DNA of 43,368 bases from Elusimicrobia bacterium HGW-Elusimicrobia-1 (GTDB lineage Bacteria; Elusimicrobiota; Endomicrobiia; PHAN01), in contig PHAN01000015.1 of assembly GCA_002841695.1 (NCBI GenBank), positions 1-43,368 of the forward strand. The letters are read 5' to 3'. Made by a program: the position numbers and the translations under genes. The notes under the pieces were generated by a model that worked only from the letters and a program-made list of their open reading frames with translations, was not told the origin of the DNA and did no database searches. Of this stretch, positions 3,126 to 40,600 are shown piece by piece. The first letter of the stretch is position 1. The number at the start of each line of letters is the position of its first letter.

Positions 3126-3971
3126 TCAGTCGGTGGCGACAACGAGACAATAAACCTCGGCGGCGCCGGCGGACATAAGGGCGCGCGCACAGGCGTCCAG
3201 AGTCGAGCCCGTCGTCATTACATCGTCTATAAGAAGTATTTTTTTGCCCTTTGCCAATTCGATACCGCGACGCGGCACGACGAAAGCCCCCGCGACGTTC
3301 TTGCGACGTTCGGCGGCCGAAAGTTTCGCCTGCTGGGGCGTCGAATACGCGCGGCGAAGCAATGACTCTCGATAATTCAGTCCGGCCAGACGGGCAAAGC
3401 CGCGCGCGATAAGGTCGCTTTGATTATACCCTCTCTTGAAACGCCTGAACGGATGGAGCGGCACGGGCGCAACGATGTCGGGCGAAGAGATTTCGGGATA
3501 ACGGCCGTATGCCTCAAAAAGCAGGCCGGCGAAAAAAGCCGCGAGGCGCTCGGCGTTTTGGTACTTGAACTTTATGATGAGTTCGCTTAGTATGCCGTCG
3601 TAAACGGCGGCGGCCCGGACGGCGGAGTAAGCCGAGGCGACATATTGCGCCCCCTTTTCCCCCAGAAAATTATCCTCCGGCACAAAGACATTATTGTAGA
3701 GTATCTCTCCCGTGGCAGAACAGCTCGGGCAGACGGCGTTTGAGTTTTTACGCGGAAAATTATCCTCAAAGCCGCCGGACAGCGCGAACGGCTTGCCGCA
3801 TACGAGGCAAACACGGACGGACTCATCTATGATTTTTATCGTGGACGAACAATCGCGGCAAACGCTAATGCCTTCGTCGCCGGTCCATTTCGAGCAGGCG
3901 GCGCAGGTCACAGGAAAAACTATGTCCAGCGCCGTGCGCGCCGCGTATTTCAGTGTTTTTATCCCCTTCAA
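3126..3971 (-). CDS. comF: ComF family protein (double zinc finger plus phosphoribosyltransferase domain)
   Basis: A 281-residue protein. The N-terminal third has cysteine pairs (CAACSKW, CRDC, CLVCGKPF, CPSC) forming a ComF-type double zinc ribbon. The C-terminal part carries the PRPP-binding loop ILLIDDVMTTGST of type I phosphoribosyltransferases, preceded by IVAPVPLHPFRRFKRGYNQS, a hallmark of the ComF/GntX group. ComF supports DNA uptake in competent bacteria, but many non-competent species keep it and its reaction is unknown. It lies 137 nt downstream of the SprA-like gene on the same strand, separated from it by a 103-bp inverted repeat, so co-transcription is uncertain. Confidence 0.9.
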   Translation of the reverse strand: MKGIKTLKYAARTALDIVFPVTCAACSKWTGDEGISVCRDCSSTIKIIDESVRVCLVCGKPFALSGGFEDNFPRKNSNAVCPSCSATGEILYNNVFVPEDNFLGEKGAQYVASAYSAVRAAAVYDGILSELIIKFKYQNAERLAAFFAGLLFEAYGRYPEISSPDIVAPVPLHPFRRFKRGYNQSDLIARGFARLAGLNYRESLLRRAYSTPQQAKLSAAERRKNVAGAFVVPRRGIELAKGKKILLIDDVMTTGSTLDACARALMSAGAAEVYCLVVATD

Positions 3972-4108: not shown

Positions 4109-7100
4109 CTAAAACTGTATCGTCAGCCGCGAATTAATGTTTATGGCGTAATAATCCTCGTACGACTGCGTCAGATTTTTATTAAGCGTAAATCCTCCGC
4201 CTACCGCAACGCGAAAGTTGGATGTGGCCTCGTAGTCGCCGGTAAAATTGAGATTATAAACGTCGGTATTGCCCTTTTCGTAATTTACCGTTGAACGGCT
4301 CTGGGCAAGGTTGAGATTCGTATTGAAAGTGAAGCGGTTCGTCAGCGGAAGCGTTCTGCCGATAAGAGGCAGTTTTATTCCCGACGCAGATACATAGTCC
4401 CAGTAAGCGGTCAATGCCGGAGTGCGCGTTATGGAATCGGCGGTAAGTTTGTCGAAACCGTCGCGGGTGTTCTGTTGCGACTCGTCGTATCGGGCGGTAA
4501 GACGCCACTTCCCGAGATTAAAACCGACCTGCACTCCGTAACTGTCGGCTATGCTGAGTTTTGTGCGGTTCTGCGAGCGCAAATCCATTTCCTGCGCGAG
4601 CGAATTGTTGTAATTGGCGCTTACACTGTAGCGCTTCAGGGCCGTCGTTCTTCCTTCAATGCCGTAATTCGACGACTCCGCAGATGTCTGCCCCAGTGTT
4701 TCGCTGTAGCGCAGGGCGGTCTTGTAACTGATGGTGGTATCGGAGGCGTATCTTTCCAGAAAAATCATTTTCTCCACGTCGGAAAGAGTAAACAGCAAGT
4801 CCGGCCAGTTAAGTGTGTAGGAGCGGCGCTCCGTGCCGGTCGTGTCGGAATATTCGTCCGAGCGGGAATAGGTAAAGTTACTGTTAAGCGTTTTCCACGG
4901 AGCCAGCCGGCCGGAAAAATATATCTGCTCCAGCGGATTCCAGCGCCCGGACACTCTCAGAGTGTCCGACTGTGTCAGCGAGCGGCGCTTATCCGCTATC
5001 GATTTCAGCGCGTCTCTTATCCAGAATCTGTCGCGCACGCTGTATGTGGAAGCGACATTATCGTAACTATCGCCGTCGGCAATGCGATAGGAAGAATTCA
5101 AAGCAAGCGACCTTGTGTGCGCAAAACCCGTAAGATCGCGCACATTGAGATTCCATGCGGCTTCGGCCGCGCCGCTGCGGGTAACGGCCTTGGTCTCGGC
5201 CGGATAACTTACCGGCGGGACAGTCGAGTAGATGAGATTGTAGTTTTCGTTAACACTCAAAGAATAGGAAAAACTCGGCTGAAAGAAATTGGCAAGACGC
5301 ATCGTGGCGCCCAGAGAACCGGTCTGCGCTTGCGATTTGAGATACCTTTGCGACACGCCGTCGCGCAAAAAATAACCTTTTTTTTCCTCGCTGACATCGC
5401 CCTGCGAAAAACTCGGGTTAACGCTCAAAAAACCGCCGAACTGATACGGCGCCGAAGCGTTCCACGACCGCGATTCTTCAAGCGACAGGTAATCTTTAAT
5501 CTCCAGATATTCCTCGTATTTAATAACGCGCTGCCACGGACGAAAATACGAATATCCCACGGAATATCCGCCGCTTACCGACGTAGGCAGGATAAATAAT
5601 TTCGGCGGAGTGTACGAGGCGTTGGTCGCTATTGTTTCCTTGTCTTCGATGCGCTCTATTTGGTGCGTATCGGTTATGGCGCGGGTATATTTGCCGGCCA
5701 CCGTGGGAAAGCGGCGTATGGAAATTGAAGTGTCGGCGGAGCCGGAAAGCCCTGTCACGCGGCCCTCTTCCAGCACGGAAACCAATCCCTCCTTGGTATC
5801 TATGACCGAAGGCGTAACCGTCACCGTCTTTGCAAAAGACGTGTTTAGCGGCATATTTATCCAATTCAGATGACGGGGTTTGAAAAGCCAGAACTGCGGC
5901 ATATTGAAATAGGCGCTTTCTTCGAGACGATCCTGATTGGCGAGGCCGCCCGTAAATGTCTCGAAATTACGATCGACCCATTTTTGTCGGCCGCCCAGAT
6001 TCGCCCAGCCGGGGATTCCGAGATCTGCGTTATACCGGTAGGCAATACCCCCTTTTTTATAAGTATCCTCGACGTAAATCTCGTTGATCCATATCTCGCC
6101 CGCCGCGACGCCGGCGCTTCTTAATCCTGTCTTAAGTTGCGATATGTTGTTCAGAGCCGGAGAGCCGACTACTCTCACTGCCGAGCCCGGTTCCAAACTC
6201 TCCCATACGTCAGGTTTACCATCGCGGTTTTTGTCGGCCTGTTCTATCGTTAGGACTTTCCATCCTGTCCACTCGACCGGTATAGAAAACTCGAAATAAT
6301 TGGCTTCATTGCCGGCTTGTAAGAAAAAATTGCCGCGCGATATAGCAGCAGGCTCGGAAGATGCGTATACGAAAAATCTCAAACGTCTGTACTGCGATAA
6401 ATCATACGGCGTGACCCATGCCAGACGGGCAGCCACAGAGCCGTCCTGAATGTCGTATTTAAGTGAAAGCGCCTGCTCTTTCTTGTACCGGCGGACAGTA
6501 TCGGCAAGATCATAAAGCTCCTCGTATATCGGGTTACGCGTAAGCGGCTTATAGGTCGGGTCTTCTTCGTTGTTGACGGCCGCTATGGTAAGCGTGCTGC
6601 CTGCCGCGACATAGGCGCTTTCCCATCTTTGTCCGACGAAAGAAATCTGCGCAATCTTGACGGAACCCTTCTTGTTGCCGCGTACACTTACGCGCGCGTG
6701 TTTTACGGTCTCCCACCTGGCGCGGTCGACTTCCTGAATGTTAAGAGGAATGCGCTTGAATCTCCATCCCGTCCAGTCCAGCGTAAGTTCTCCGTTGTCG
6801 GGCGACTGCCACACGGGATTATCCAGTGTATTGAGATAGCCGTTGCCGTCGAGATCTTCCGTGTCGAGAAGACCGTTGCCCGCGCCGATTACGGTCGCGG
6901 CGCCGTCGGGGTTGACAAAAGTTATGCCGGTGTCCTCGCCTTGATTGAGTATGCCGTCGCCGTTTCGGTCTTCTGTGTCGAGCGCGCCGTCGCCGTCGAT
7001 ATCCTCATTGAGCGTGCCCAGAGAGATCTGCATTTTGGCGCCAGAGCCGTCGCCGTACACCCATGTCTCCATATAAAGTTTCCGCGAAAAATCCAGACCG

Positions 7101-9187
7101 GCCCGCGACAAACTCTGATGAATGGCCACCTCCGAGGAACGAACGTTGTCATAATTGACGACAAGAACCTGCCTTTTTTCTATGACCGATTCGTCCACGG
7201 CCGGATTTATATCGCGCAGATACATTTCTTCGTTGCTCCACTTTATATCGTCGGCAAAATACCCGAAAGGCGTGTAGCCGCGGCGCCAGGGGTCGCGAAA
7301 CATTGTAACATTGTCTTCCTGCTTTATGCCCTCCATGGATTCAACTATGGCCTTGCCTATGGTATTGGGATTTCTGCGGCTCTGCGCAATTTCGCCGCCG
7401 AGGCCGAGCGTCCAGCCGAGATATGGAATCTTGATGTCGGTTATTCGGCTGTCGACTTCCAAAACATCCAGGGACGACGGCGGGTTTTTTACGTCGGGCA
7501 AGGCCTGAGCCGACGCGGAAAATTCATAGAGATACGACGAGCCGACGAAAATGTTCGGAGTCAGGGCGATCTCGCCGCGCAATCCCATTATAGTGGACCC
7601 CGTGGTGATGCCGAAAGGCGCGTAGTCGTAGGAAATTTCTATTACGGAATCCCCCGTGATTTTGTCCTCGTTATGAAAAGTTATGAATCCCGAATCGTAG
7701 TCGATGAAATAATCGCCGTCGCGCGAAAGAGTTTTGCCGTCGAGCACAACGCGCTCCGACTGAGGCACTATGCCGGTACGCAGCTGGAAGGTTTTGAAAC
7801 GATAACGGTATTCCACGAATATTCTGTAGGAACTCGTCGGCGAGGCGCGGTATGCCTCCGGCAGAAAAGGCGTGGCGCTGTTCTTAAAGTAAATGAATCC
7901 CTGCTCGAAATCCACTTCGATATCTTCGGGATATTTGGGCGCCGGCCCGCCCCCCACGGTCTGCGCGTCGGCGCGGTTGAGGTCCTGAATCTTGAGCACA
8001 AAATTGCCCCTGCCGTCGTCCCTGACTATTCTGTTGCGGCCTATGGAATAGTAGTTTTTCCGCTCGGTAGTGTCGGCGTTGGCTTCGTCCTTTATTACTT
8101 TCGGGATGCCGGTATAAAATCCGGTATCGCGCAAATATCCGCCGGTTTCGGCCTCGTAATCGACCGCTATGACGTAGTTGGTTAAAATGGTTTTTCTGAA
8201 ATAAACTACGCCGCGGTCGTAGTCCACGGAATAGTCCTGCCCGGGAACCAGCAAATCGAAATTGCCGAAAGTCGTCGCGCCGGGCGCGAGCGTCCGCGGG
8301 ATTTCCACGGTAATGGAACTGGTGTTAATATTGTTATTGGCGGGGATTTTATCGTCGAGATATATCTTTTCGCTGCCGCGCTTTATCCTGTCGGCGCCGA
8401 AGGCCATCCGGTAATAGCGGTAGCGTATGTAGGCGGTATCGTTTATCTCTTTTCTTTCGAGAGCCGCGTTGCCGATGAAACGTTTTATCTCGGATTGTCC
8501 CTTGGTCTTGGAGCCGAATCCGATGAAACGCATATTGCGGTATTTCGCGTCGACCTTGGCGCCGAAAAGCTGCCTGGAATACCCCACGAATTCCGTCTGA
8601 GGCAGAGAAACCGTTATGTCGCCGAAAGCCGCTTCCTGCACAACCTCGTCGGGGTCGCCCTTGTAAACCACGGATATGTCGCGCTTCTCGGCCGTAGTGT
8701 CGTCAAAGTCGATATTTACGTTTATCTTGCGCCCGACGCGGCCTTTTATTCTGACCTGTAACTCCTGTGTCATCGTCAGATCGGTGCGGGAAGCCCGGAT
8801 GTTTTTCGCTTCTGCTTCCGCGGGATTGAGATACTGCGTAACTTTCAAGTCGAGGGCTATAAGCTTTCTTCCGGATATTGCGATGGCCGATTCGTACGGC
8901 AGATCCACGGCAAGTCCCGGCGGCTGCGCCGCCTCAACCACGGCCGACGGCGCACGGGTAGACACACCCATATCGGAATACCGGTCGCCGTATTCCACGC
9001 GGCGGCGCATTTCGTTCCACAAACGCTGATTATACCTGAACGGCGCTCCGCCGTCGTCGGCAAGTTGACCGGACTGTGACGACTGTTCGACGACGGATGT
9101 TTCCAGCGCCTGCGCGGAAACCGCGCTAAAAAATATAAAAAGCGCGGCTGTCGTAAAAAGATAATGGGGGTTTTTACCGAATATCAC
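4109..9187 (-). CDS. sprA: SprA/Sov-like outer-membrane translocon protein
   Basis: 1692 residues from a GTG start, with a signal peptide (residues 1-28, cleavage near VSAQA). Residues about 140-230 match the SprA N-terminal pattern: RIKGRVGRKINVNIDFD, then YKGDPDEVVQEAAFGDITVSL, then QLFGAKVDAKYRNMRFIGFG. In Bacteroidota SprA the same order is found (tolerance of a TGDE-x-E repeat, then SLFGIKT). The middle repeats DSGFITF/GVVYFRK-type beta units and holds acidic DxDGDG loops near residues 735-790. The last 500 or so residues are amphipathic beta strands ending in a terminal Phe, as in outer-membrane barrels. SprA is the channel of type 9 secretion. At 1692 residues it is shorter than typical Bacteroidota SprA (over 2000). 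It follows lptG by 40 nt, so it is probably in the lptFG operon. A divergent outer-membrane barrel with another role remains possible. Confidence 0.7.
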   Translation of the reverse strand: MIFGKNPHYLFTTAALFIFFSAVSAQALETSVVEQSSQSGQLADDGGAPFRYNQRLWNEMRRRVEYGDRYSDMGVSTRAPSAVVEAAQPPGLAVDLPYESAIAISGRKLIALDLKVTQYLNPAEAEAKNIRASRTDLTMTQELQVRIKGRVGRKINVNIDFDDTTAEKRDISVVYKGDPDEVVQEAAFGDITVSLPQTEFVGYSRQLFGAKVDAKYRNMRFIGFGSKTKGQSEIKRFIGNAALERKEINDTAYIRYRYYRMAFGADRIKRGSEKIYLDDKIPANNNINTSSITVEIPRTLAPGATTFGNFDLLVPGQDYSVDYDRGVVYFRKTILTNYVIAVDYEAETGGYLRDTGFYTGIPKVIKDEANADTTERKNYYSIGRNRIVRDDGRGNFVLKIQDLNRADAQTVGGGPAPKYPEDIEVDFEQGFIYFKNSATPFLPEAYRASPTSSYRIFVEYRYRFKTFQLRTGIVPQSERVVLDGKTLSRDGDYFIDYDSGFITFHNEDKITGDSVIEISYDYAPFGITTGSTIMGLRGEIALTPNIFVGSSYLYEFSASAQALPDVKNPPSSLDVLEVDSRITDIKIPYLGWTLGLGGEIAQSRRNPNTIGKAIVESMEGIKQEDNVTMFRDPWRRGYTPFGYFADDIKWSNEEMYLRDINPAVDESVIEKRQVLVVNYDNVRSSEVAIHQSLSRAGLDFSRKLYMETWVYGDGSGAKMQISLGTLNEDIDGDGALDTEDRNGDGILNQGEDTGITFVNPDGAATVIGAGNGLLDTEDLDGNGYLNTLDNPVWQSPDNGELTLDWTGWRFKRIPLNIQEVDRARWETVKHARVSVRGNKKGSVKIAQISFVGQRWESAYVAAGSTLTIAAVNNEEDPTYKPLTRNPIYEELYDLADTVRRYKKEQALSLKYDIQDGSVAARLAWVTPYDLSQYRRLRFFVYASSEPAAISRGNFFLQAGNEANYFEFSIPVEWTGWKVLTIEQADKNRDGKPDVWESLEPGSAVRVVGSPALNNISQLKTGLRSAGVAAGEIWINEIYVEDTYKKGGIAYRYNADLGIPGWANLGGRQKWVDRNFETFTGGLANQDRLEESAYFNMPQFWLFKPRHLNWINMPLNTSFAKTVTVTPSVIDTKEGLVSVLEEGRVTGLSGSADTSISIRRFPTVAGKYTRAITDTHQIERIEDKETIATNASYTPPKLFILPTSVSGGYSVGYSYFRPWQRVIKYEEYLEIKDYLSLEESRSWNASAPYQFGGFLSVNPSFSQGDVSEEKKGYFLRDGVSQRYLKSQAQTGSLGATMRLANFFQPSFSYSLSVNENYNLIYSTVPPVSYPAETKAVTRSGAAEAAWNLNVRDLTGFAHTRSLALNSSYRIADGDSYDNVASTYSVRDRFWIRDALKSIADKRRSLTQSDTLRVSGRWNPLEQIYFSGRLAPWKTLNSNFTYSRSDEYSDTTGTERRSYTLNWPDLLFTLSDVEKMIFLERYASDTTISYKTALRYSETLGQTSAESSNYGIEGRTTALKRYSVSANYNNSLAQEMDLRSQNRTKLSIADSYGVQVGFNLGKWRLTARYDESQQNTRDGFDKLTADSITRTPALTAYWDYVSASGIKLPLIGRTLPLTNRFTFNTNLNLAQSRSTVNYEKGNTDVYNLNFTGDYEATSNFRVAVGGGFTLNKNLTQSYEDYYAININSRLTIQF

Positions 9188-9227: not shown

Positions 9228-10310
9228 TTAAGAAGGTATTTTAAAAAACAGCCACGCGCCGGCCGCGCCGAAAATTATGTTGCCCAGCCACGCGGCCATA
9301 AAAGGCGACAAAATGGCGTTCTCGCCCAACGATTGCCCCAGCGCGCTCACGCCGTAGTAAAGAAATGCCATGACAAGCGCTATGACAAAACCGAATACTT
9401 TTCCGTGACGGGCCGACACGGTGGCGGCAAAGTAAACCCCTATAAAAAGCACCACGAAATTACTCATTGAAGAAGCTATCCTGTAATGAAAAGCCACGGC
9501 TTCGCGGCGGGCGGGAAGACCCAGTTTTTGAAGCAACCGCAGGTTCCTTAGATGCTCGGAAAACGTCATTTCTTCCGGATGGGCGGCGCCAAAAATAAAG
9601 TCATCGGGCGAAACGCTCATATCCTTGAAATATTCGCGGAACGACCTCTCGGCCACGGGAAGGTCGTCGACGAAATCACGCTCCACGCCGTCGATAAACT
9701 TCCATTTTTCTTTTGTCCATTCTATACGCCGCGCCACAACCTGTCGTCGCAAACGAAACATTTCGTCATACTCGTAATAAATGGCGTCGCCTATGTAACC
9801 TCCGTCGACGTTCAGAACCGCGGCCTGCAGCTTTCCGGCGGGCGGCACGCTCATGCTGACGGCCCAGCGCACCCCCGCCTCGCGAGGCGGCAAGCCCATT
9901 ATGCCGGTGCGTTTTATCTCGTAACCCTTAGACACCAGCGTCGGGACGATGAAAAATACCGCCGTAAAAACCGCCAGAGACAGGAGTAATCCGGCGGCAA
10001 AAAAAGGCACAAACGACCTGCGGATGTCGTAACCGGCCGCTTTCACGGCCGTCAATTCTCCCGAGCGCGCCATCTGCCCGAAGGAAAAAAGCGTCGCTAC
10101 CAGCGCCGCTATGGGCAGCAACTGAAACGCCTTGTGAATATTGGTAAACGCAAGATAACCTATTATGGCCGACGCCGAGGCCTTGCGTTCCAGAAATATA
10201 CCCAAATCTCTGAAAAAATCCGATATTACGGAAAGACCCGCGAACACGGCTATGAGAAACAAAAACGGCCGGGCGAACTCTCTGAAAATGTGCTTTGTGA
10301 ATATTTTCAT
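9228..10310 (-). CDS. lptG: LptG-like permease of the LPS export ABC transporter
   Basis: 360 residues of the YjgP/YjgQ family. Two or three transmembrane helices lie at the N-terminus (starting MKIFTKHIFREFARPFLF), followed by a periplasmic beta-jellyroll region of about 150 residues and three C-terminal helices. The conserved cytoplasmic block GELTAVKAAGYDIRR contacts the LptB ATPase. With LptF it extracts lipopolysaccharide from the inner membrane and passes it to LptC/LptA. It lies downstream of lptF, separated by a 287-nt gap filled by repeats, and 40 nt upstream of the SprA-like gene. The F/G assignment rests on gene order and on similarity to the family as a whole. Confidence 0.85.
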   Translation of the reverse strand: MKIFTKHIFREFARPFLFLIAVFAGLSVISDFFRDLGIFLERKASASAIIGYLAFTNIHKAFQLLPIAALVATLFSFGQMARSGELTAVKAAGYDIRRSFVPFFAAGLLLSLAVFTAVFFIVPTLVSKGYEIKRTGIMGLPPREAGVRWAVSMSVPPAGKLQAAVLNVDGGYIGDAIYYEYDEMFRLRRQVVARRIEWTKEKWKFIDGVERDFVDDLPVAERSFREYFKDMSVSPDDFIFGAAHPEEMTFSEHLRNLRLLQKLGLPARREAVAFHYRIASSMSNFVVLFIGVYFAATVSARHGKVFGFVIALVMAFLYYGVSALGQSLGENAILSPFMAAWLGNIIFGAAGAWLFFKIPS

Positions 10311-10318
10311 AATACTTT

Positions 10319-10539
10319 GTCATTGCGAGCCACCCGCAGGGTGGCGCGGCAATCTCATTTTTTGGTTTGTCATTCCCGAATGCCTGCCCTCGAATGCAGC
10401 GGAGCAGCACTGCGGCAAAGCCGCGTGTGTCTTTATCGGGGGTTGTTATCGGGAATCCAGTATTTCAATAATGTTGCAAAAAATTCTGGATTCCCGTTTG
10501 CACGGGAATGACAACTTTTGTAGTGTCCATCGCAATGAC
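10319..10539. repeat. Nested palindromic element between lptF and lptG
   Basis: Three inverted pairs are nested: GTCATTGCG (10319-10327) with CGCAATGAC (10531-10539); TGTCATTCCCG (10369-10379) with CGGGAATGACA (10503-10513); and TCGGGAATCCAG (10449-10460) with CTGGATTCCCG (10486-10496). A further short hairpin (CACCCGCAGGGTG) lies at 10331-10343. Such CATTGCGAG / TCATTCCCG palindromes are common mobile intergenic repeats in bacterial genomes. No gene is visible in 10311-10597. Confidence 0.8.
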
Positions 10540-10597
10540 GGCCAAGGTGACTTTTTCAACAATCTTATTATGTGAAACCGCGTTCCGGTCTATCCTA

Positions 10598-11704
10598 TTA
10601 TCTTTTAAACGCCTCTCGCCACAGAAAAAAAGATGCCAGTGCGGCGGCAAAATTAGGCAAAGCCAGAGCAACAGCCGACGGAACCCCGCCGCTTTCGGAC
10701 ATATTAATGCCTATGGCAAGAAAAATATAATAGAGGAAAACAACTGCCAGAGAAAACGCAAAACCGGCGGCCTTGGCGCCCTTTCCGGCAAGAAGCCCAA
10801 CCGGAACGCCTATAAGCGCGAAGAAAAACGGCGACAACCCTATGGCAATTCTTAAGTTCAGTTCGGTATTAAGCGCCGGGATGGATGTCGCGCGGTCGCA
10901 AGAGGCCAAGCCGGCCGCTTCAAGACGCTTTATCTCGGAACGCAGTTCCGAAGCGGTATATTCCCTCAAACTTCGGGACTTCACGGCTCCGCCTTCCATG
11001 GGAATTACCACGTTGTATCCGGCAAACAGCAGCGATGTCGACTCCGATGGAGCTTTGGGATCGGCCTTTTGAAACGCTCCCGAGAACATCCTAAAAATAA
11101 CTTTATCTCCGGTGAAAACAGCCGTGGCGCTTGACGCGTAAATAAGCGCCGACGGCTCCAGCGTACCCTCGGTAAAACGGTAAATGCTTACCTTAAGAAG
11201 GACTCCGTCTGAGGTTCTGTCCTCGAAATAAATTCTGTTGGAACCTATGATGGCCACTGTCTTTTTTTCAAGACGCAGGGCGGGCGCGCGGCGGACTATT
11301 TCAAAATAATTTTTGCTGAAACTCTCGTATGTTTTGGGCGCAAGATTAAGATTGTAGAACACCAGCGCGGCGGCAAGCGCGGCGGCCAAAATCACGGGCG
11401 GCGCCATATAGTCGATATGCTTTATGCCGGCCGTCCGCACGGCGGTAATTTCGTTGTCGGAAGAAAGCCGCCCGTAGGAGAGTATCGCGCCGAAAAGAAC
11501 CGATATCGGCACGCTCAAAGACAACACATTCGGCAGCATAAGCGCAAAAAGCGCCGCGGCATTGGCAACCGGCACTCCCTTGGACACAACCATATTCACT
11601 ATCTGGAATATCTGATCCAGCAGCAAAATAAAGGTAAAAACCGCCAGGCCGAAACCCAGCGAGGAAAGAAATTCCGCCAGAATGTAACGCTTAAGAATTT
11701 TCAT
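10598..11704 (-). CDS. lptF: LptF-like permease of the LPS export ABC transporter
   Basis: 368 residues of the YjgP/YjgQ family: N-terminal helices (MKILKRYILAEFLSSLGFG), coupling block LSSDNEITAVRTAGI, a periplasmic domain of about 150 residues, and C-terminal helices (LSPFFFALIGVPVGLLAG, then two more). It acts with LptG and LptB to drive lipopolysaccharide toward the outer membrane. It is the first gene of the minus-strand block and is divergent from galT, with a putative TATAAT box 24 nt in front of its ATG. The proximity of lptF, lptG and the SprA-like gene suggests one envelope-assembly operon. Confidence 0.87.
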   Translation of the reverse strand: MKILKRYILAEFLSSLGFGLAVFTFILLLDQIFQIVNMVVSKGVPVANAAALFALMLPNVLSLSVPISVLFGAILSYGRLSSDNEITAVRTAGIKHIDYMAPPVILAAALAAALVFYNLNLAPKTYESFSKNYFEIVRRAPALRLEKKTVAIIGSNRIYFEDRTSDGVLLKVSIYRFTEGTLEPSALIYASSATAVFTGDKVIFRMFSGAFQKADPKAPSESTSLLFAGYNVVIPMEGGAVKSRSLREYTASELRSEIKRLEAAGLASCDRATSIPALNTELNLRIAIGLSPFFFALIGVPVGLLAGKGAKAAGFAFSLAVVFLYYIFLAIGINMSESGGVPSAVALALPNFAAALASFFLWREAFKR

Positions 11705-14004: not shown

Positions 14005-14080
14005 TGACCTTCCCCCCGAAAACTGGACCGGTTGAAAGTTAAGTCCGAAAGAGGTATAAAAAGCGCAAGGAGGCCGAATT

Positions 14081-14347
14081 ATGCGCATCGGACGTTACCC
14101 AACCGAACAGATCATCGGGATACTCAAAGAGGCCGAAGCCGGACGCGACCGCAAGGAATTATGCCGGCACTACGGCATAAGCGAAACGACGCTTTACAAG
14201 TGGAAAGCGAAGTTCGGCGGCATGAATGTCTCCGAGGCCAAGCGACTCAAAGAACTCGAAGACGAAAACCGGCGGCTCAAGCAACTCGTCGCCGAAGAGG
14301 CGCTCGACATCCGCGTCTTAAAGGAACTGCTCTCAAAAAAATTCTAA
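14081..14347 (+). CDS. IS3-family transposase OrfA
   Basis: 88 residues (MRIGRYPTEQIIGILKEAEAG...). A helix-turn-helix (ELCRHYGISETTLYKWKAKFGG) recognises the IS ends. A leucine-zipper-like coiled coil follows (RLKELEDENRRLKQLVAEE) for multimerisation. The ribosome binding site AAGGAGG (14067-14073) is strong. The end LLSKKF overlaps the slippery A7 run that leads into orfB. Confidence 0.93.
   Translation: MRIGRYPTEQIIGILKEAEAGRDRKELCRHYGISETTLYKWKAKFGGMNVSEAKRLKELEDENRRLKQLVAEEALDIRVLKELLSKKF
14335..14341 (+). promoter_or_regulatory. Programmed -1 ribosomal frameshift site of the IS
   Basis: The heptamer A AAA AAA is set exactly in the orfA frame as X XXY YYZ. A -1 slip moves ribosomes into the orfB frame at 14341 and yields a fused OrfAB of about 388 residues, the active IS3-type transposase. 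OrfA stops a few codons later at 14345-14347. Confidence 0.85.
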
Positions 14348-15246
14348 GGCCCAAAGCCAAAAAAGAAGCCGCGCGTCACGCTAAACACTTTGGGCCGCTA
14401 AGTCAAAGAAAAGCGGCTTCGCTCGTCGGACTTAATCGTTCCACGCTGTATTACAAGCCCCTCGGCGCGCGGAACGACGAAGCATTGCGAAGACGTCTCA
14501 AAGAACTTGCCGACAAACACAAACGCTGGGGCTGCCCGATGCTTCATTATGTTCTCCGCCGCGAGGGTTACGTCGTTAATCACAAGCGCACGGAACGGAT
14601 TTACAAAGAAGAAAACCTCGGGATAAAAAGACGTAAAAGAAAACGGCATCTGCCGTCGGATTTAAGAAAAAATATGCCCGCGCCGACTCAACCCAACGAA
14701 CTCTGGGCTATGGATTTCATAATGGATCGGCTCCAGGACGGACGGCGGCTCAAAATATTCACGCTTATCGACGAGTTTAACAAGCGTTGTCTTGCCATGG
14801 AAATAGACACTTCAATCTCGGGTGTTCGCGTCGCGCGTGCGCTTGAAGAAGCCGCGGCCCGCGAAGGCGCATATCCCAAGGCGCTTCGCTCCGACAACGG
14901 CCCGGAATTTACGTCCAAGGCGCTTTTCAACTGGGCAGACAAACATAACGTTGACCCTGTTTTCATCGAACCGGGTAAGCCCACGCAAAACGCTTTCGCC
15001 GAAAGTTTTCACGGCCGTTTCCGCGAAGAATGCCTCAACGAAAACTGGTTCGTCACGCTGGATGAGGCCAGGCGAATCTGTCGGGATTGGCGCGATATGT
15101 ACAACTCTTTCAGGCCGCATACGTCGCTGGGCCGGCTCACGCCGGACGAGTTCACCGAAAAATATTATGCCGCCGCCGCTTGCATGACGCCGGCTGATTT
15201 CAAAGAACAATTGTCGTCGGACTTTAAACTTTTGACTGGTACATAA
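14341..15246 (+). CDS. IS3-family transposase OrfB (DDE integrase domain, made as OrfAB fusion)
   Basis: About 301 residues in the -1 frame relative to orfA. An HTH_21-like region (GPLSQRKAASLVGLNRSTLYYK) precedes the rve-type core. The catalytic triad is visible: D in ELWAMDFIMD, D in LRSDNGPEFTS, and E in NAFAESFHGRFREECL, with the usual spacing of about 35 residues between the last two. The tail YNSFRPHTSLGRLTPDEF is typical. No frameshift or stop breaks it. The long in-frame extension back to 14032 is the antisense-like reading of orfA and is not protein. Confidence 0.93.
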   Translation: MLRPKAKKEAARHAKHFGPLSQRKAASLVGLNRSTLYYKPLGARNDEALRRRLKELADKHKRWGCPMLHYVLRREGYVVNHKRTERIYKEENLGIKRRKRKRHLPSDLRKNMPAPTQPNELWAMDFIMDRLQDGRRLKIFTLIDEFNKRCLAMEIDTSISGVRVARALEEAAAREGAYPKALRSDNGPEFTSKALFNWADKHNVDPVFIEPGKPTQNAFAESFHGRFREECLNENWFVTLDEARRICRDWRDMYNSFRPHTSLGRLTPDEFTEKYYAAAACMTPADFKEQLSSDFKLLTGT

Positions 15247-30962: not shown

Positions 30963-31466
30963 TTATCTGTTAAAAAAAACCACGGAGCCGTCGGACGCGG
31001 TGTAATAATAAATTTTACCCGAGCCGGAGAATTTGGAACGGTTGGTTATAACTTTTTTGACGTAGTCGCGGGTTTCTTTGTATGGAGGGATGCCGCCGTG
31101 TTGCCTTACCTTTGAGGGACCCGCGTTGTAAGCGGCAAGCGCCTTGGACAGGTCGCCGCCGAACAGCGATAGCATATCCCTGAGGTATCTTGATCCCGCC
31201 CTTATGTTTTCTTCGGGCGAGGTGCGGTCTTTTACTTTAAGAATATCAGCCGTCGACGGCATAAGCTGCATAAGGCCGACGGCGCCCTTCGACGACACGC
31301 AATACCGGTTGAAGTTCGATTCGGTTTTTATAACGGCTTTTATCAGCGACGGGTCGAGACCGTATTCGGCGGCGCAATCGTTGATAATATCGTCGTATTT
31401 TCTGTCGGCAAAGAGAGAGCGCGCGCACATAAGAAAAATCAAAAATACCGTCGGAAATATTTTCAT
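30963..31466 (-). CDS. Secreted lytic transglycosylase (SLT family)
   Basis: 167 residues from the ATG at 31466 with a signal peptide (MKIFPTVFLIFLMCARSLFA). It cleaves peptidoglycan to 1,6-anhydro products. The SLT core has the catalytic Glu in VIKTESNFNRYCVSSKGAVGLMQLMP, then ENIRAGSRYLRDML and ALAAYNAGPSKV. A short beta tail (KIYYYTASDGSVVFFNR) closes the protein, as in many delta-proteobacterial-type SLTs. It is one domain only. The longer frame back to 31595 runs through palindromic repeats and is not protein. It lies 134 nt after the giant secreted protein, so it might help that protein or its exporter through the wall. Confidence 0.9.
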   Translation of the reverse strand: MKIFPTVFLIFLMCARSLFADRKYDDIINDCAAEYGLDPSLIKAVIKTESNFNRYCVSSKGAVGLMQLMPSTADILKVKDRTSPEENIRAGSRYLRDMLSLFGGDLSKALAAYNAGPSKVRQHGGIPPYKETRDYVKKVITNRSKFSGSGKIYYYTASDGSVVFFNR

Positions 31467-31479
31467 GGTTTCTTTCGCG

Positions 31480-31598
31480 GGGACAGGTCGCGACCTGTCC
31501 CTACAAACGCATTGCGCGTCACGGGCGACCAAGGTCGCCCCTACGCGAGGCAACGAGCCGCTGTTTTTTTCCACTAACCACTCGCCACTAACCACTGC
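31480..31598. repeat. Repeat cluster: two palindromes and a 14-bp tandem repeat
   Basis: A perfect 22-bp palindrome (31480-31501) plus the following TACA matches the leuS insert. A second palindrome, GGGCGACC-AA-GGTCGCCC, lies at 31523-31540. CCACTAACCACT occurs twice in tandem at 31571-31598. The whole gap between the giant gene and the transglycosylase is made of these elements. Confidence 0.85.
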
Positions 31599-31600
31599 CT

Positions 31601-34600
31601 TTAATGTATCACGCCGATCTTGCGGATTATGGTAACGGCCTTATCGCGGGCGCGGACGGTTATCCTGGCGATATATCCGCCCTTGGCCACTTTCTGGCCC
31701 TGGGCGTTGGTGCCGTCCCACGGAACGCGGTTGGCTCCTTTGCGGCCGCCGCTTTGTCCGGCGGGATAATTCCAGCGGTCTACTTCATAGCCCAGCAAGT
31801 CGAACAGCGCTATTTCCACGTCGGCGTCCTGATTGAGGACGTACACTATATTGGTTCTCCCCTCCTCGCCGCCTTTTCTTGTATCGACGGGGTTGGGGAA
31901 GTTGCTTACGGCCGATATTACTTCGGCGGGCAGGCCGGTAACGGCGGGGGCGGACGGCGCAGACCACGCTCCCCATCCTCCGGCATAGTTCTGGGCGCGG
32001 ACGCGGTAGTAGTAGAAGCGTCCCTGCTCTCTTGGCTGGTTCGAGGGCAGATCCTTGTTGCCCACCTGGAAAGTGTTGTAACCACCCGACTTAATCCTTA
32101 TAGTTTGCCAGACGGGATTGGTATCCACGCGTTCCTGTATCTCATACGCGCGTACTCCGGATTCCTCGTCGGCGGAAGGAGCCCACTCTATAGTGTAGAC
32201 GCCGCTGGTCTCCGGACGTCCGGATTTTTCGGGGTCGGACACCGGCGCGCCGGCCTGTGACGGCGGGGATACGTCCACTCTATAAGCCATCATCGGAGCG
32301 GCCGGTCCATAGATGTCGGTTCCGGACACGGCCGCCACTGCGCGCACGCGGTAGAAGTACGCATAGTTGGTTACGCGGGTTCGGGCCGAGTGGGCCTGCG
32401 CCTGAGTGCCGTTAATGGCGCGCTCGACTATCGTAAAGGTATCGCCCGTCTTGGTGGTGTATTTCATCATTTCGCTGCCGATGTAAATCTGTCCGTTTTC
32501 AAGAGAGAAACCGTCGGTGCTTTCCACCTGCAGGAGGAACGGCGGAGCGGCAAGACGGGCAACCGAACTCTTGGTGCGCGTAACTTTGGCCACCACCAGC
32601 GGCAAATTCAACACTGTTTTTTTGTTTTGGGAGGCGGCCATCCATCCTTCCGTCGCTACGGATTCGGTCACGTCGTTTCTGTCTGCGACGGCGCCTATGC
32701 CTATCTGATATTCCTTGAAGTTGGCGGAAGTTACCCTCGGCCACTTACTGTATAGACGGGATGTTTCCTTGCTCCATTTTTCAGGTATGTAGCCCCAATC
32801 TACGTTGCCGTCTTTTTTAAGGTCGATTTCAGGAACGCCGTCGCCATTGAGGTCGCCCACGATGTCGTCGGCGAAGCCATCGCCGTCGAGATCGACATCG
32901 AGCACACCGTTGCCGGAAATGTCTATCTCGGCGATACCGTCGCCGTCGAGGTCGAGGTCGCGCGACTCGTCGCGTCCGGAAAGGTCTTCAATATCGTTTA
33001 CGCCGTCGCCGTCGAGATCTATGAACACTTCGCCGTCGGGGCTCATCACCCGGACAACCTCGTATTCAATTTCCCGATATGTGCCCTTGGCTCTATCCAG
33101 CGCTTCCTGATATATCTTCTTCTTCCTGTCGGTTATGGTATATCCCTTAGGCAGTCCTCCGTTGGCATTTATTTCTTCGATGCACATCGCCGGATAGCCG
33201 TCGCCGAAAACATCGACCCAAACTTTGGGAATCATGGAAACCGCGGATATTGTCGGGGCGTATTTATCCATTATACTCAGGGGATTGGATATATACGGGA
33301 AAGTGTTGGTCGCCGGCGAACCGGCGGTTTCAGGAACAATTACCAGTCCGGTGAAATGAAGCAGCGAGATACTCGCAAGATGGCCGCGTGTATTGGCATT
33401 GTTCGACAGGTCAAATTCTCCCACATTACCCGTCACAAACAACGTTTTGCCAGTTGTCCCTATTTCAAAACCTTTATCCCCCAGAGTTACCACGGCAGTG
33501 CTGGTAACAAAATCCAGGCCGCCGCGCGCGGCATAGCCCAGAAGCTTGTCCACCTGCGAATTAAAGACCCCGTTCCCGTCGATGTCGTGCCACACGCTTA
33601 TGCGGCTGAAATCGCCGTAACCGTCGCCGGCCTCCGACGGTGAATCAATAGTGCCCAACTGACGCAGAAGAAGCTTGTTCAGCGTGATTTGATTGCGATC
33701 CACCCACATATTAAGCCGCAACAGCGGGACGTTGACTGTAAGCTGCTGGACGGCGACGGGCGCCATACTCTCGGCCGTAATGCTCAGATTTACCGGGTTT
33801 ATCGTGAACATCGACGTCTCGTAGGGATAGCTGCCCGTGACGATGTCGAGTCCCATCTCCTGCTCAACCACCGACGAGTTCTCGTTAGGCGACGTAAACC
33901 GCAGCCAAGCGCGGTCCTGAATTTTTACGCCCAGCGAGTTACCGGCCACGGCGTTATCTCCTATGTCGTAGGCGATAAAGTACGTCTGCGCGGTCTTGGC
34001 CAGCATCTGCGGTTGAGTGAGTGTCACAACTTTGAGGCGGTTGCGATCGTCCAGAATATCGAACATATCAACCTTCGACACCGAGGCGCCGACGCTGTGC
34101 GATGCGGCCGCGGTGTTGAAAAGAGCGCGGCGGGTTACCCTGAGAGAAGGTCTGGCAATACCTGAAATCATCACGGTGCCGGCGCCGGAGAACTCCATTA
34201 TTTCGTCGCCAATCTTTGCGTAGAGCTGCGAGCCCGACGCGGGGAGTTGTCCCTGATCGGACACGGTGGAAGTCACTATCATATCGAACGGAACCGCGGC
34301 CAGATTTGAAACCTCGACGTCAAGCGCCGTGGACATCTCCGATATACAGTTGTCCTCGGCGTCGAGTATGTCGTTGCGATTGGAGTCCATATAAATTTTT
34401 ACGTATTTGACGTCGGAGTTGCGCGCATAAGGATAGTCGGCTTTGGAAGACGAACCGATGCGCTCAAGGTCGATGCCCCACCACCGCGCGCCGGCCACGG
34501 TCGTGCGGAGTTTCATTCTGGCCACCGGCACCCTGGTGGCTGCCTGGTAGGTGCCGCCGGCCTGATTGACGGCCTTCGCCGAGTCGTACACCCTCATTAT

Positions 34601-37600
34601 GCCGTAGCTTACGACCTCCATTATGGGCGATGCCTTGGTGGCTCTGGGCGGAGAGAATCCTTCGTCAAAGTTTTTCAAGTCCGGCACGGCCACCAGGAAA
34701 TAATCGGTGGAACGTATCGTAAATCCCACTGTCCTTGAGACCTGAGCGTTTTCCGCTATATCGTAAGTTACCCAGTAGGAATCAAGCGTGGGTCCGATTA
34801 TTTGCTTACGTTTGAGATTTACCGTTACGGTTCTGTCGACGAATCTCTCCGTGCCTTCGGTGATGAGGCCCAGATATTTTGACGTCGCGGAACTGTATAT
34901 GACTTCCGAGGGGGCATACTGACCGATTTCCGTGGTGGTATCCTTAAGCACCTTCCATACTTTCACCCTGGCTATGTCGCCGTCGACGCAGGTGACCTGC
35001 TCTTTGCCGGAGGGGTCGAGAACACTGAGGTCGAATTTCAATCCTTCCCAGACGGCTGTATTCTTATTGGTAAACAAAGTCAGCTGCATAACCCCGACGT
35101 TGACGTCGTTTTGCACCACGGATGTCGGCAGTATGTCGGATGTGCGCACATACATCGTGTCGACCGTGGGGATTATAACGGCGCCGGGCGAATCCATCGG
35201 GAAAGCCAGCGCGCCGAGGTCGTCGTAGTTGGACATCTGATGTCCCGCTTCGGACGGACCGAGGGCAACGCGGGTTCTCTCGGAACAGTACAGGCCGACG
35301 ACTTCGTTTTGAGGCGTCTTATTGGGGTCGGAGAACTTGGCCGACGGACTTATGTCCATAGTGAGCCAGTAGAGAGTGGGCGTGGTGGTCACAAGGGTGT
35401 ATCCGCGGTCAATGACGGGGTCGTTGAGACCTATCGACGCGAGGCCGTTGCCGTCGAACGCTCCCTGGCCGAGCCGCGTTTCCACAAACTCGGAAATCTC
35501 TCCGGTTTCGGGATCGCGGTCAAGAGTGCCGTTGCCGTTATCGCGCCATATCTTTATCGCCGATACGTCGGTATCGTCTCCGTAAAGACCCAGAGGCATC
35601 AACCGGTTGAAAGTTATATTTTCAAGACGAACTTCAAAGCCGCTTGAAACGAGTTTAAACTTCATAAAAGCGTTGTTTTTGTCGCCCTGCGTGTAACTTA
35701 TTCCCAACACGGCTCCCGACGAATGCGTCTGTGCCGTGGAATCAAGCAGACCTCTTGTGACTCCCAGCAAAGTGTCGGCGGATTTATCCGAGTAGCGTAT
35801 TATTTCGCTGCCTATTATGGCGTATCCGCTGGTGGGCAGACCAAGCGTGGGCGTGACCGAGTTGACCGGGTCGTTGGAATAAAGCGCGATGTAATTTTGC
35901 CCCGACGGCAAAGAGCCCTTGACGCGCGGCGCCGGATAAGAACCGGCCTTGGTCGTGAACATCGGCGACGGCGTGATGGTAACAGTTCTGGGAGACGGTA
36001 TTATGTCTCTGAGCCGGCCGGACAGCGGCGTGGAATACGCGCCGGTGGAAACCATATAATTGGGAGACGAGACCGCGAAATTGGTGCCGTCTCTTACGAT
36101 GCGCGCGCCCAGGGTGCGCGGCGCCTGCGTATCGGGATCGTTGGGCAGCGCATTGTCGGTAATGTCGTAAGTCACGAAGAATCTCTGCGACTTTCCTCTG
36201 TAAATCACGCGGCGGTCATCGTTGTTTTTGACGAAAAGTGTCTGCGCGTTAGCGGGTGTAAACGCTACATTCGACATGAGCGGCTGGCCGGTATTGCCGA
36301 AAGTTCCGGAACCTATAAGCAGGTCGTAGGCGGGCGAGAAGATGCCGTTGTTGTCCTGGTCGTACCAAATCTTGACTCGGGACACTTCTTCCACGAGATT
36401 ATTGTTATCGGCGGCGGTGCCGATGCCGTATATGTTGAGGCCGGACCAGCGCGCCTCCGAAGAACTGGTGTCCAGAGTAAACGTCAGCACCGGCTGGTTT
36501 GTGGCCTGCTGCTGCAAGCTTCCGCCCAAAGTCGTGTTGGTGGCCACGCAGACGATCGCGTCGGCGTATTCATTTACGCGCAGCACGTAGCTGGCAGATT
36601 TTCCGGACGGCGGCAGGCCTATCATATTGTAGCGGTTCTCCATGTAGTCGGGAACGCTCAGCGCAAAGTAGGCCGTGGTGCGCATTTCAAGACCGAGGTT
36701 GGCGTCGGGGTCGACATTGGCCAGTATGTTAACATCGTAAGTGACGAAATAATCCTTGGGTATAGTGGTAAGTTCCTGTCCGCCGAGCGAGCCGACGAGA
36801 TTGATTATGGCCTGTCCGGAAATAGGCGAGCCGGCGGCAAAACTCAGCGGAGACGAGGAGCGAACGACGTCCGTAAACGTGTTGTTGTTAATGTCGACGC
36901 CATAATAAGTTACCACCTCGCGGGCGGATGTTCCATCGCCCAGGACAAGCCGTCCGGGCGCGGCGGGGAAGGGACTGAGGTCCGGTATGAACGTCGTCAT
37001 ATCGACCACGCGGATGGAAGTATCCGCCGGACCCACGGCCCAGAACAGAGTGGACATCGGGAATACCGCCTTCTTGTCCGTGGGAGAAACCACCTGGTCG
37101 GTCGCGGGGTCAAGCAGGCCGTTGCCGTTGACGTCGCGCCACACTTTAATGTCGGCCACGTCGGCGGGACTGTTTTTACCCTCGGGGTTGCCCCTGTCGA
37201 ACTTGAGACCCGTCCATATGGCCGTCCTTTCCATGGTGGCCATGGTCATTCTTGCGACCGGTATGTTTTTGTCGCCTTGAACGGCTACGCCGGGCACGCT
37301 GAAATTGTTGGGCGCGCTCTTGTTGAAGTCCACGAGATTGGTGCGGTCGCGCGTGGCCTCGATAGTGACGAGCGAAGAAACTATGGCGGGTATCGGCTGT
37401 ATCTTGCCCTCGGGGCAGATAATATGGTTGGCGTCTGAGATTCTGGCGCCCTGCGTAAGAAGCGGCGTGGCCGAATCATGGATGCGATAGGCCACAAAGA
37501 AGTGCCGCGTGGTCGTGTCTATAAGTTGCAGCGAGTTGAGCGCCACGAGCGCCGCGCCGTCGGAGCCGAAGGTTGTCCACGTGGATATCTGCTGGTCCAG

Positions 37601-40600
37601 CGCCGACTGGAATATGCCGTCGCCGCCGGACGGGTCTCCCGTGGCGTTGTCGTCCATATATATAGCGCAGCCCACCACGTCCGAATCGTAACCGGAACCC
37701 GTCCTGGTTACCCTGACTTGACCGAGACGGCCGGTGAACTCGGGTGTCCACATGGAAATTTTGAGCATGCCCACCGACGGAGTTCCCTGATATACCCACG
37801 TGCTCTTGGCGAGTTCCGAGAACGTTCCGCGGTTTACTTCGTACCACGCGGCGATATCCTCGCTGGCGGCGAATATTTTGGCGGCTTCTTTCATCACGGG
37901 CGAGGTGGCCGTTCTTATGGAGAAGTTGTTGGCCGCTATTCTTGCCACGGAGGCGCTCGACGTTATTATGTAATTGTAGTTGTCAATCCTGAGACCCAGT
38001 GTGTTGGGCGTAGGGGCAACCGTGGAAATTCTTACAGTCAGGAAGTAGTTCCTCGACGTGGTCGTAATGATTTCGTTGAGGTCGGTGAAATACCACGCGT
38101 TGGCCGCCTCGCTAAACGTTCCGGTCTTAACCAGTTCGTCGGACGAAGGCCCTCCGAGGAACAGTTCGCCGTTGAATTTACCGTTGAGGTTGGAATCGCG
38201 GTACAGGCCCACGGCGGTAACGGCAGAGGCGGGCAATGTCCCCAGCTTGTCCACCCGCAATTGCGTCATTGAGGCCGTCTGTGTAACTCCCGACGGCTGC
38301 ACGCGGATGTTGAGACGCAGCATCGGCGCGGGAGCGGGCTTTTCGTCCACTTCGCCGTCGCCCTGCAAAAGCGCCGTTCTGTCCTGATACACACTGCCTT
38401 CGCGAAGTTCGCGTTTGGCGGGGGTCAGCGGATCTTCGGGCGCCATATCGGCGGGGGTTATCACCACGCCGGCGGTAACCACGTTGCCGTCGGAGCGGGA
38501 GGGCAGGTCCCTGTCCATATCGTCCGTATAGCCCACTATCTTCGACGGATGTCCGTCGGGCAGAACGATCGAGGCGTAGTCGGTAACGCGCACTTTAAGC
38601 GAACCTTGCTCCTGATTTGTCAGTTGCAGGGTCGAGTAAGTTCCGGCGTTGCCGGCGGTATAGGTGTAGTAGGTCGTGCCCTCGGGGCCGGAATCGCGCA
38701 GATTGACTTTGGATGCGTCGCCGTCGTGGGTCAGCAGAATCGTTCCGGTGTAATACTGTCCGTTCTGCGTATGGCCGGTGGCAAGGTTGCCGTATCTGTC
38801 GCGGGCGCGCACGGTTATAAGACCCGGCTCGTGCACGGACAGAGGATTGGTTATCAGGAAAGGATGATGCAGAGTGAAGTAGGCCGCGGGAGCCGGCGTT
38901 ATGAAGTTCTTCTGCTCGGTGGCAAAGAACTGCCGGCCCGAATCGGTGCGGGCCGTGGCGCGCAGCGTAACCGTTCCCGTCTGCGTTTCATAGATGAATA
39001 CCATAGCCACGGTTCCGCCCGACGGAATCAGAACGTTGGCAAGGGCTCCGCCGCTGATAAGCTGCCAGGCGGGGTTGTCCGGCACAAGCGCGGGATTGGT
39101 GCCGGCGTAAGTATTCTGCGTATAGGGCGCCTCAAAGCTGACGATAACGTTTTCCGTGGACGTGGCCACGTTGCCGAAACGGTCGCGCATCTGCACGGTT
39201 ACCGGGGCAGGCACAAAATTTCCGTTTCTCTTTATGATCATATCGCCGCCGCGTCCCTGCACGGTCATAGTGGACGAAGGCGTGCCGGATCCGTCAAACT
39301 GTATCGTAGTGCCGGCTACAAGAGATCTCTGCGGCGAAGTAAATACCGTCGTGACGGGCAGATCGGGTATAACCCTGTAATCCTGATTGCCCTGCGCCCA
39401 TCCAAAGTCCACATACTCTCTGGAGGTCAGCGTGTGAGTGCCCACCAAAGAATCCGTCATTACGTACTGAGTGGTGTGCATGCCCAGTGTAAATCTGTGC
39501 AGGGCCTCAGAAGCCGTCCATACGGCGGTGGCAAATCCGATGGCGAACCGCGTATCTCCGGAGGAATCCGACAAAACGCGAATGCGTCTGGGGCTGTCGT
39601 CGGCCAGATCCATGGCAAGTATCGGAGACGGGTTGGAGAACTTATCCTGCGTCTGCAGTATAAATGGCTGACTGGTGGCTCCCGCTATCAGGTTCCACTG
39701 GACAGAGGAGACAAACGCTGTCTTCTTGATGTAGTCCGGCTGCACATTGACCCACTGCGAACCGCCCGTCCATCCGCGGTCGCGCGCAGTAACGGTTATG
39801 ACGGGGCGGGAACCGCCGGCGGGATCGTAAGTGTTGGATGTTCTGGTATCCATATAGTAGAACCGCGCGCGATAATCGCCGGTGCCTATGGTAACCGTAG
39901 ACGCCGACTGCTGGAACGACGGCGGTGGGCCCACCGTTATGGCGGACGAAACCGAAAATCCGGAATAGTCGTAGTTCGTCGACGAAGACCGCAGATTCGC
40001 AAGATCCAGCGTAATCGTTTCGGTGGACAGCGTTGGGTTGTTCCACTTATCCTGCAGCTGCGCTTCCCAGAACACCGAGAGCGCGCCGGGGCCGGAAAGT
40101 GTGTACTCGTACGGGGTGCCGGCTGTGATGGTGGCTATAGCGTTATCAAAATTGACTTTGGTCGTGGCGTCGGGGTACACCGTAAGATTCCCGCGCGCCC
40201 ATCTGTCGGGGTCGGCGCCCATTCTTACGTCTATAAGCCACGTGCCGGTGCGGCCGTCCTCTCCCGACGGAGTCGACGACATCTCGTCGTAATACAGAAT
40301 ATAAGCGGCGGTCGATTTGTAAACGCCTCTGATATTAAGAGTGGTAACGGCCGGCCCGCCGGAGTATTCTCTGAATTCCCAGAGACGCGCGGGTGTTTGA
40401 GTTTTGGCCAGAGAGTTCGTCACAAGCGATATCGGCGTGTCGCCCTGATAAGTGGGGTTATTCCAGGCATCGAGACGCTGTACCGCCATCATAGTCGTCT
40501 CGTTGCCGGCGACGATTGAAGTCGGGAAGTCGACATACTGCATTTTGTAAGGCGTGCCGCCGATGGTCCTTACCGTTTTGGAATTGCCGACCAGAGCGCC

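Follow-up and report, generated by a model that had tools for sequence, protein, structure and literature searches.

The type 9 secretion system (T9SS) and its outer-membrane translocon SprA (also known as Sov) have been assigned to one group of bacteria: a 2016 survey found the system in Bacteroidetes alone (PMC4793230), a 2024 review confines it to the Fibrobacteres–Chlorobi–Bacteroidetes (FCB) superphylum (PMC11205867) and a 2025 paper describes SprA as specific to that superphylum (PMC12611786). In Flavobacterium johnsoniae, all type A cargo relies on a single PorV, and type B cargo often has a cognate SprF encoded directly downstream; PorV of Bacteroidota is thought to be recycled (PMC12618676). 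In Porphyromonas gingivalis, PorP holds the type B cargo PG1035 and is itself tied to the cell wall by PorE, a protein with TPR and OmpA-like domains (PMC9143113). Our literature search, which had preprints and most subscription journals outside its coverage, returned no report of SprA in Elusimicrobiota. Here we describe an SprA-like gene of this phylum, at positions 4109–9187 (minus strand) of a 43,368-nucleotide contig (PHAN01000015.1, our contig C15; hereafter the window) from the 2.06-Mb, 97% complete genome of Elusimicrobia bacterium HGW-Elusimicrobia-1 (Endomicrobiia). Judged by homology and gene content, Elusimicrobiota very probably have a reduced type 9-like export route of which this gene encodes the translocon, and in which most cargo proteins have a PorV of their own.

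The gene is a single uninterrupted open reading frame (ORF) with a GTG start that encodes 1692 amino acids (aa), beginning with a putative Sec signal peptide (residues ~1–27, MIFGKNPHYLFTTAALFIFFSAVSAQA; 9107–9187, minus strand; translation judged by eye). An N-terminal block of SprA homology (residues 103–260; 8408–8881, minus strand) is the best stretch of the match to the SprA profile TIGR04189 (profile positions 98–255), corresponds to SprA residues 163–268 in the structure 6h3i and carries the motifs VGRKINVNIDFDD (residues ~151–163), KGDPDE (176–181), VSLP (193–196) and QLFGAKV (206–212). An earlier note on this DNA had recognized the SprA motif order in the N-terminal third, and all the motifs that it quoted are present. 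The ORF as a whole matches TIGR04189 at 135 bits (E = 1.7e-39), split over four stretches; because this is below the curated equivalog cut-off of 200 bits, we use the name SprA-like. A Pfam scan of the ORF gave no SprA match and a single-sequence search of the PDB with it gave no match, so a profile was required. A three-sequence profile reached solved SprA at E = 2.5e-15, in blocks colinear with SprA residues 163–268, 701–778, 1233–1403 and 1472–1603, and a 29-sequence family profile run against all PDB chains had SprA as its sole match (E = 5.2e-33). As the note had said, the protein is short for an SprA (1692 aa, against 2403 aa in F. johnsoniae), and the block coordinates suggest that the shortening is distributed across several inter-block regions. 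Two calcium-loop-like acidic repeat clusters (EDIDGDGALDTEDRNGDGILNQGED ... DTEDLDGNG; residues 728–789; 6821–7006, minus strand) are largely invariant in a three-way alignment and conserved in the consensus of the 29 sequences. The C terminus, RLTIQF, closes a predicted barrel strand with the terminal Phe that had been pointed out (4112–4141, minus strand), a putative signal for the barrel assembly machinery (BAM beta-signal); a barrel-strand ending of the form LTIQF, LTITF, MTIIF or VIQF is found in 30 of the 31 SprA-like family members. The closest relative (78% identity along the full protein length) comes from an independent metagenome-assembled genome (MAG) contig (L005), titled Endomicrobiia bacterium, on which the neighbouring genes are identical in kind to those of the window; the second, at 35% identity, is on a contig titled Elusimicrobia bacterium.

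The predicted fold points the same way. We modelled the ORF with AlphaFold as two overlapping parts, residues 29–1190 and 505–1692 (mean predicted local distance difference test scores (pLDDT) of 73 and 79, predicted template modelling scores (pTM) of 0.47 and 0.48). In Foldseek searches with each partial model, the four SprA structures took the first four places (E = 1e-36 to 1e-49); the best remaining E values were 7e-6 and 7e-7, with LptD at 3e-4. Counting by eye in the DSSP assignments of the two models gave about 36–40 long strands, the SprA reference being a 36-strand barrel. By the earlier note's own criterion, the SprA assignment would have fallen had LptD, TamB or some other barrel matched best and had the genome lacked further type 9 components. 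The profile search and structure overlay that it proposed came out the opposite way, with SprA top by both and LptD far behind. Profile and predicted fold together confirm the ORF as a distant SprA homologue.

Other type 9 parts are abundant in the same genome, where 11 PorV-family matches lie above the cut-off of the PorV profile NF033709, with many weaker ones, and about 25 matches to Por_Secre_tail were found, some below cut-off. Self-built profiles for the C-terminal sorting domain (CTD) and for PorV, run on this genome, gave 27 CTD cargo genes and 26 PorV-family genes, which bears out the suggestion that another phylum has a type 9-like system in reduced form. Of the 27 cargo genes, 22 are followed immediately, on the same strand, by a PorV gene; 2000 random gene draws gave 0.41 such cases on average and never more than 4. 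Twenty-five of the 27 cargo signals match TIGR04183, the type 9 C-terminal signal, at E <= 0.1; the CTD profile also resembles FlgD immunoglobulin-like (Ig) domains and the CTDs of PG93 and PorU. The cargo domains recognized (subtilase, M6 peptidase, PLD-like, metallo-beta-lactamase fold, Kelch and fn3) are of a surface or secreted type. For the PorV profile, the best PDB match is the PorV of the SprA complex (6h3i_F, E = 1e-31), with TodX/FadL at 1e-9 and weaker. CTD similarity correlates with the similarity of the partner PorV proteins (Mantel r = 0.50, p = 2e-4), a pattern that either cognate pairing or the duplication of whole pairs would produce. Other genomes have the pairing too: comparison of coordinates by eye gave at least 19 further CTD–PorV tandems in at least 16 other genomes from eight families (for example G002:C45, G004:C24, G068:C123, G120:C72, G125:C55 and G148:C48).

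Many of the partner PorV proteins, which we call shuttles, are more than a barrel. C-terminal extensions of 67–394 aa are present in 11 of the 22 paired shuttles, and among nine such tails scanned we found OmpA (one), LysM (two), TPR (three) and helix-hairpin-helix (one) domains, the other two having no informative family match. Seven PorV-family shuttles are in this way fused to one of these four domains, and the OmpA, LysM and TPR tails would tether their barrels to the cell wall.

Across 150 Elusimicrobiota genomes, the SprA-like gene is present in 131, PorV-family genes in 136 and TIGR04183 signals in 95. Within one genus (g2), SprA and PorV have been lost jointly. All 13 of its genomes with the SprA gene have PorV, including one (G122) in which SprA is broken by frameshifts and stops; none of the 14 genomes without SprA, or with a short remnant of it, has a PorV match (Fisher p = 5e-8, uncorrected for relatedness). 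Decaying copies in this genus (G122:C13:21563–25127, G017:C1:953509–953796, G100:C11:3204–3419 and G062:C5:27817–32880) range from frameshifted genes with stops, through short remnants, to a copy that is full-length apart from one TAG. The remnant in G017, an assembly of four contigs that is 99% complete, lies between comF and lptF, and that in G100 adjoins lptF. Phylum-wide, all 14 PorV-less genomes are without an intact SprA, and seven SprA-less genomes retain PorV genes, some of them being fragmented assemblies.

Several points weigh against the assignment to a type 9-like route. The SprA match falls short of the 200-bit equivalog cut-off, identity to solved SprA in the Foldseek alignments is 13–15%, and both models cover parts of the chain at a global precision that the pTM values indicate to be low. 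General gene loss contributes to the disappearance of SprA and PorV, because their co-loss is confined to one genus of reduced genomes. Finally, five of the 27 cargo genes have no PorV gene directly downstream, among them a giant gene at the end of the window (31601–43366, minus strand).

This giant putative cargo has at least 3894 aa, in a frame open to the contig end. The CTD profile matches it at residues 3834–3921 (E = 1.9e-19), which places a type 9-like C-terminal sorting domain, ending RKIGVIH, at 31604–31867 (minus strand); the next gene, 5 bp on, encodes a lytic transglycosylase (30963–31595), and PorV does not follow. Because the last 79 bases of the contig recur, identical and inverted, at the beginning of contig C11, which is also where another CTD cargo ORF sets in, both giant cargo ORFs look truncated by a common repeat. 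At the other end of the window, an ORF at 3–587 with no Pfam match extends past the left edge of the contig. Over its first 128 bases it shares 88% identity with the beginning of contig C13, where a CTD cargo of 6495 aa is encoded.

How such a route would be powered and completed is less certain. One reading, plausible though somewhat less likely than not, is a simpler form of type 9 system, possibly near-ancestral, in which export proceeds through SprA with no dedicated GldL/GldM motor or sortase, and in which every cargo is pulled out and retained by a PorV of its own, part of these being tied to the wall. GldL (TIGR03513) had no match above cut-off in the 150 genomes and weak sub-threshold matches in five of them, GldN had none above cut-off in the 150, and GldM (TIGR03517) had no match in the window's own genome. 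The search for PorV and Gld parts that the earlier note had proposed was thus answered in part, PorV being found and GldL, GldM and GldN not. Peptidase_C25, the catalytic domain of PorU, was absent from the window's genome and present in one of the 150; the sole carrier, G006, has two partial matches (C83:8486–8974 and C55:15182–15640). ExbD/TolR was considered as an SprA-linked motor and rejected, because it is present, often as a single copy, in most genomes, including most of those without SprA.

The motor is probably absent, though short of proof, given that the profiles derive from Bacteroidota sequences and that even SprA scores below its cut-off. A complete type 9 system, with GldL, GldM, GldK and GldN present but diverged past the Bacteroidota profiles, is a less likely though substantial alternative: with SprA scoring as it does, short partners could be missed, and the weak GldL matches in five genomes also speak for it. 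The same explanation could draw on one FGE-sulfatase-domain protein that matches GldK at E = 1e-25 and whose neighbours are a small protein with two helices and a large one with HEAT repeats, but the FGE-domain protein scores better as EgtB (4e-32), has no lipobox by eye and shares with GldK only the general FGE fold. Also against a diverged motor are the lack of any GldL or GldN match above cut-off and of any GldM match in the window's genome, and a crude scan for GldL–GldM-like gene pairs, which yielded only short, unconvincing candidates. The cluster itself (C4:130127–134087, L137:10127–14087, minus strand) comprises the FGE-sulfatase gene (with signal peptide), the gene for the two-helix protein of 135 aa and that for the HEAT-repeat protein of 915 aa (with signal peptide); it lies about 2 kb from a CTD–PorV pair and may encode an envelope complex.

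The surroundings of the SprA-like gene bear on a second alternative, that the barrel has been repurposed for lipopolysaccharide (LPS) or envelope assembly with LptF and LptG while the CTD–PorV pairs exit otherwise. Upstream in the window, on the same strand, lie genes for an lptG-like LPS export permease (9228–10310, minus strand; PF03739 E = 9e-60, best model TIGR04408 LptG) and an lptF-like one (10598–11704, minus strand; PF03739 E = 4e-64, best model TIGR04407 LptF), with gaps of 40 bp between SprA and lptG and 287 bp between lptF and lptG. Downstream is a comF-like phosphoribosyltransferase gene (3126–3971, minus strand; Pfam DZR_2 and Pribosyltran), a conserved neighbour that is co-directional with SprA in 21 of the 31 SprA loci that we compared. 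The co-directional arrangement with its short gap, and the presence of lptF/lptG near SprA in at least 20 of the 31 loci, speak for repurposing. In 18 loci, however, lptF and lptG are upstream yet divergent from SprA; they are co-directional in two, both within the window's genus, and in 11 they were undetected within the short flank examined. With lptFG divergent or not seen in the remaining loci, the operon reading is limited to the window's genus, and the joined outer-membrane and LPS unit that the earlier note had offered is not supported, because most relatives carry divergent lptFG. Moreover, G017 and G100 keep lptF beside the SprA remnant with PorV gone, and we found no candidate for a different exit of the CTD proteins. 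We regard repurposing as very improbable. Between lptF and lptG, positions 10311–10597 consist of dispersed repeats with many genomic copies, of TTGTCATTGCGAGCCACCCGC... and GGATTCCCG... types, and an integrase-core (rve) transposase gene at 14032–15246 is likely to mark an insertion element.

Recent transfer of SprA from Bacteroidota, or assembly contamination, has nothing in its favour except that SprA is usually found in Bacteroidota and their relatives, and is scarcely credible for a gene found in 131 of 150 genomes in a conserved neighbourhood, with about 14% identity to F. johnsoniae SprA and a 78%-identical counterpart among the same neighbours on the independent contig L005.

In the reduced route that we propose, Sec would bring cargo with a C-terminal Ig-like signal into the periplasm, and the SprA-like barrel would, by homology, carry it across the outer membrane. 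A PorV-family barrel, usually the product of the next gene, would then take over the signal; its homology and the pairing are as described above, and the transfer itself is our proposal. The cargo may remain barrel-bound at the surface, in place of cleavage by the PorU sortase, and PorV barrels ending in LysM, OmpA or TPR domains would tie the pair to the wall on the periplasmic side. A phylum-wide SprA with private PorV proteins and no recognizable motor widens the known range of the type 9 system, and makes it possible to test in Elusimicrobiota which energy source drives type 9 export and whether its motor is a later addition. The CTD signals also predict which proteins these bacteria display at their surface, and decay of the route can be seen within the reduced-genome genus g2.

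Set beside the described systems, the ORF resembles SprA/Sov (TIGR04189; 6h3i, 6h3j, 8gl6 and 8gl8) in its colinear blocks, its terminal strand and, by the count in the two partial models, roughly 36–40 long strands, and differs in its identity of about 14%, its length (1692 versus 2403 aa), its score below the cut-off and its phylum, which lies outside the FCB group (PMC12611786). The shuttles share a barrel fold family with UPF0164 and FadL/TodX (PF03687 and PF03349 matches), but their nearer solved relative is PorV (E = 1e-31 versus 1e-9 for FadL/TodX). With the type A pathway of Bacteroidota (PMC12618676) the Elusimicrobiota system has in common a PorV-family barrel and TIGR04183-type signals; whereas one PorV serves type A cargo there, about 26 PorV genes are present here, most of them after one cargo gene, and no PorU homologue was found. 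The SprB–SprF and PG1035–PorP–PorE systems (PMC12618676, PMC9143113) offer the parallels of a shuttle gene directly downstream and, as proposed here, a barrel-held cargo and an OmpA/TPR wall link; in Elusimicrobiota, by contrast, the shuttle is PorV-like, the signals are mostly type A-like and the OmpA, LysM or TPR domain is part of the shuttle, PorE being a separate protein. On sequence grounds, Elusimicrobiota pair cargo and shuttle privately, as in type B, but with a predicted shuttle of the PorV type and signals that are mainly type A-like, and a wall link of the PorE type appears to have been fused to the barrel.
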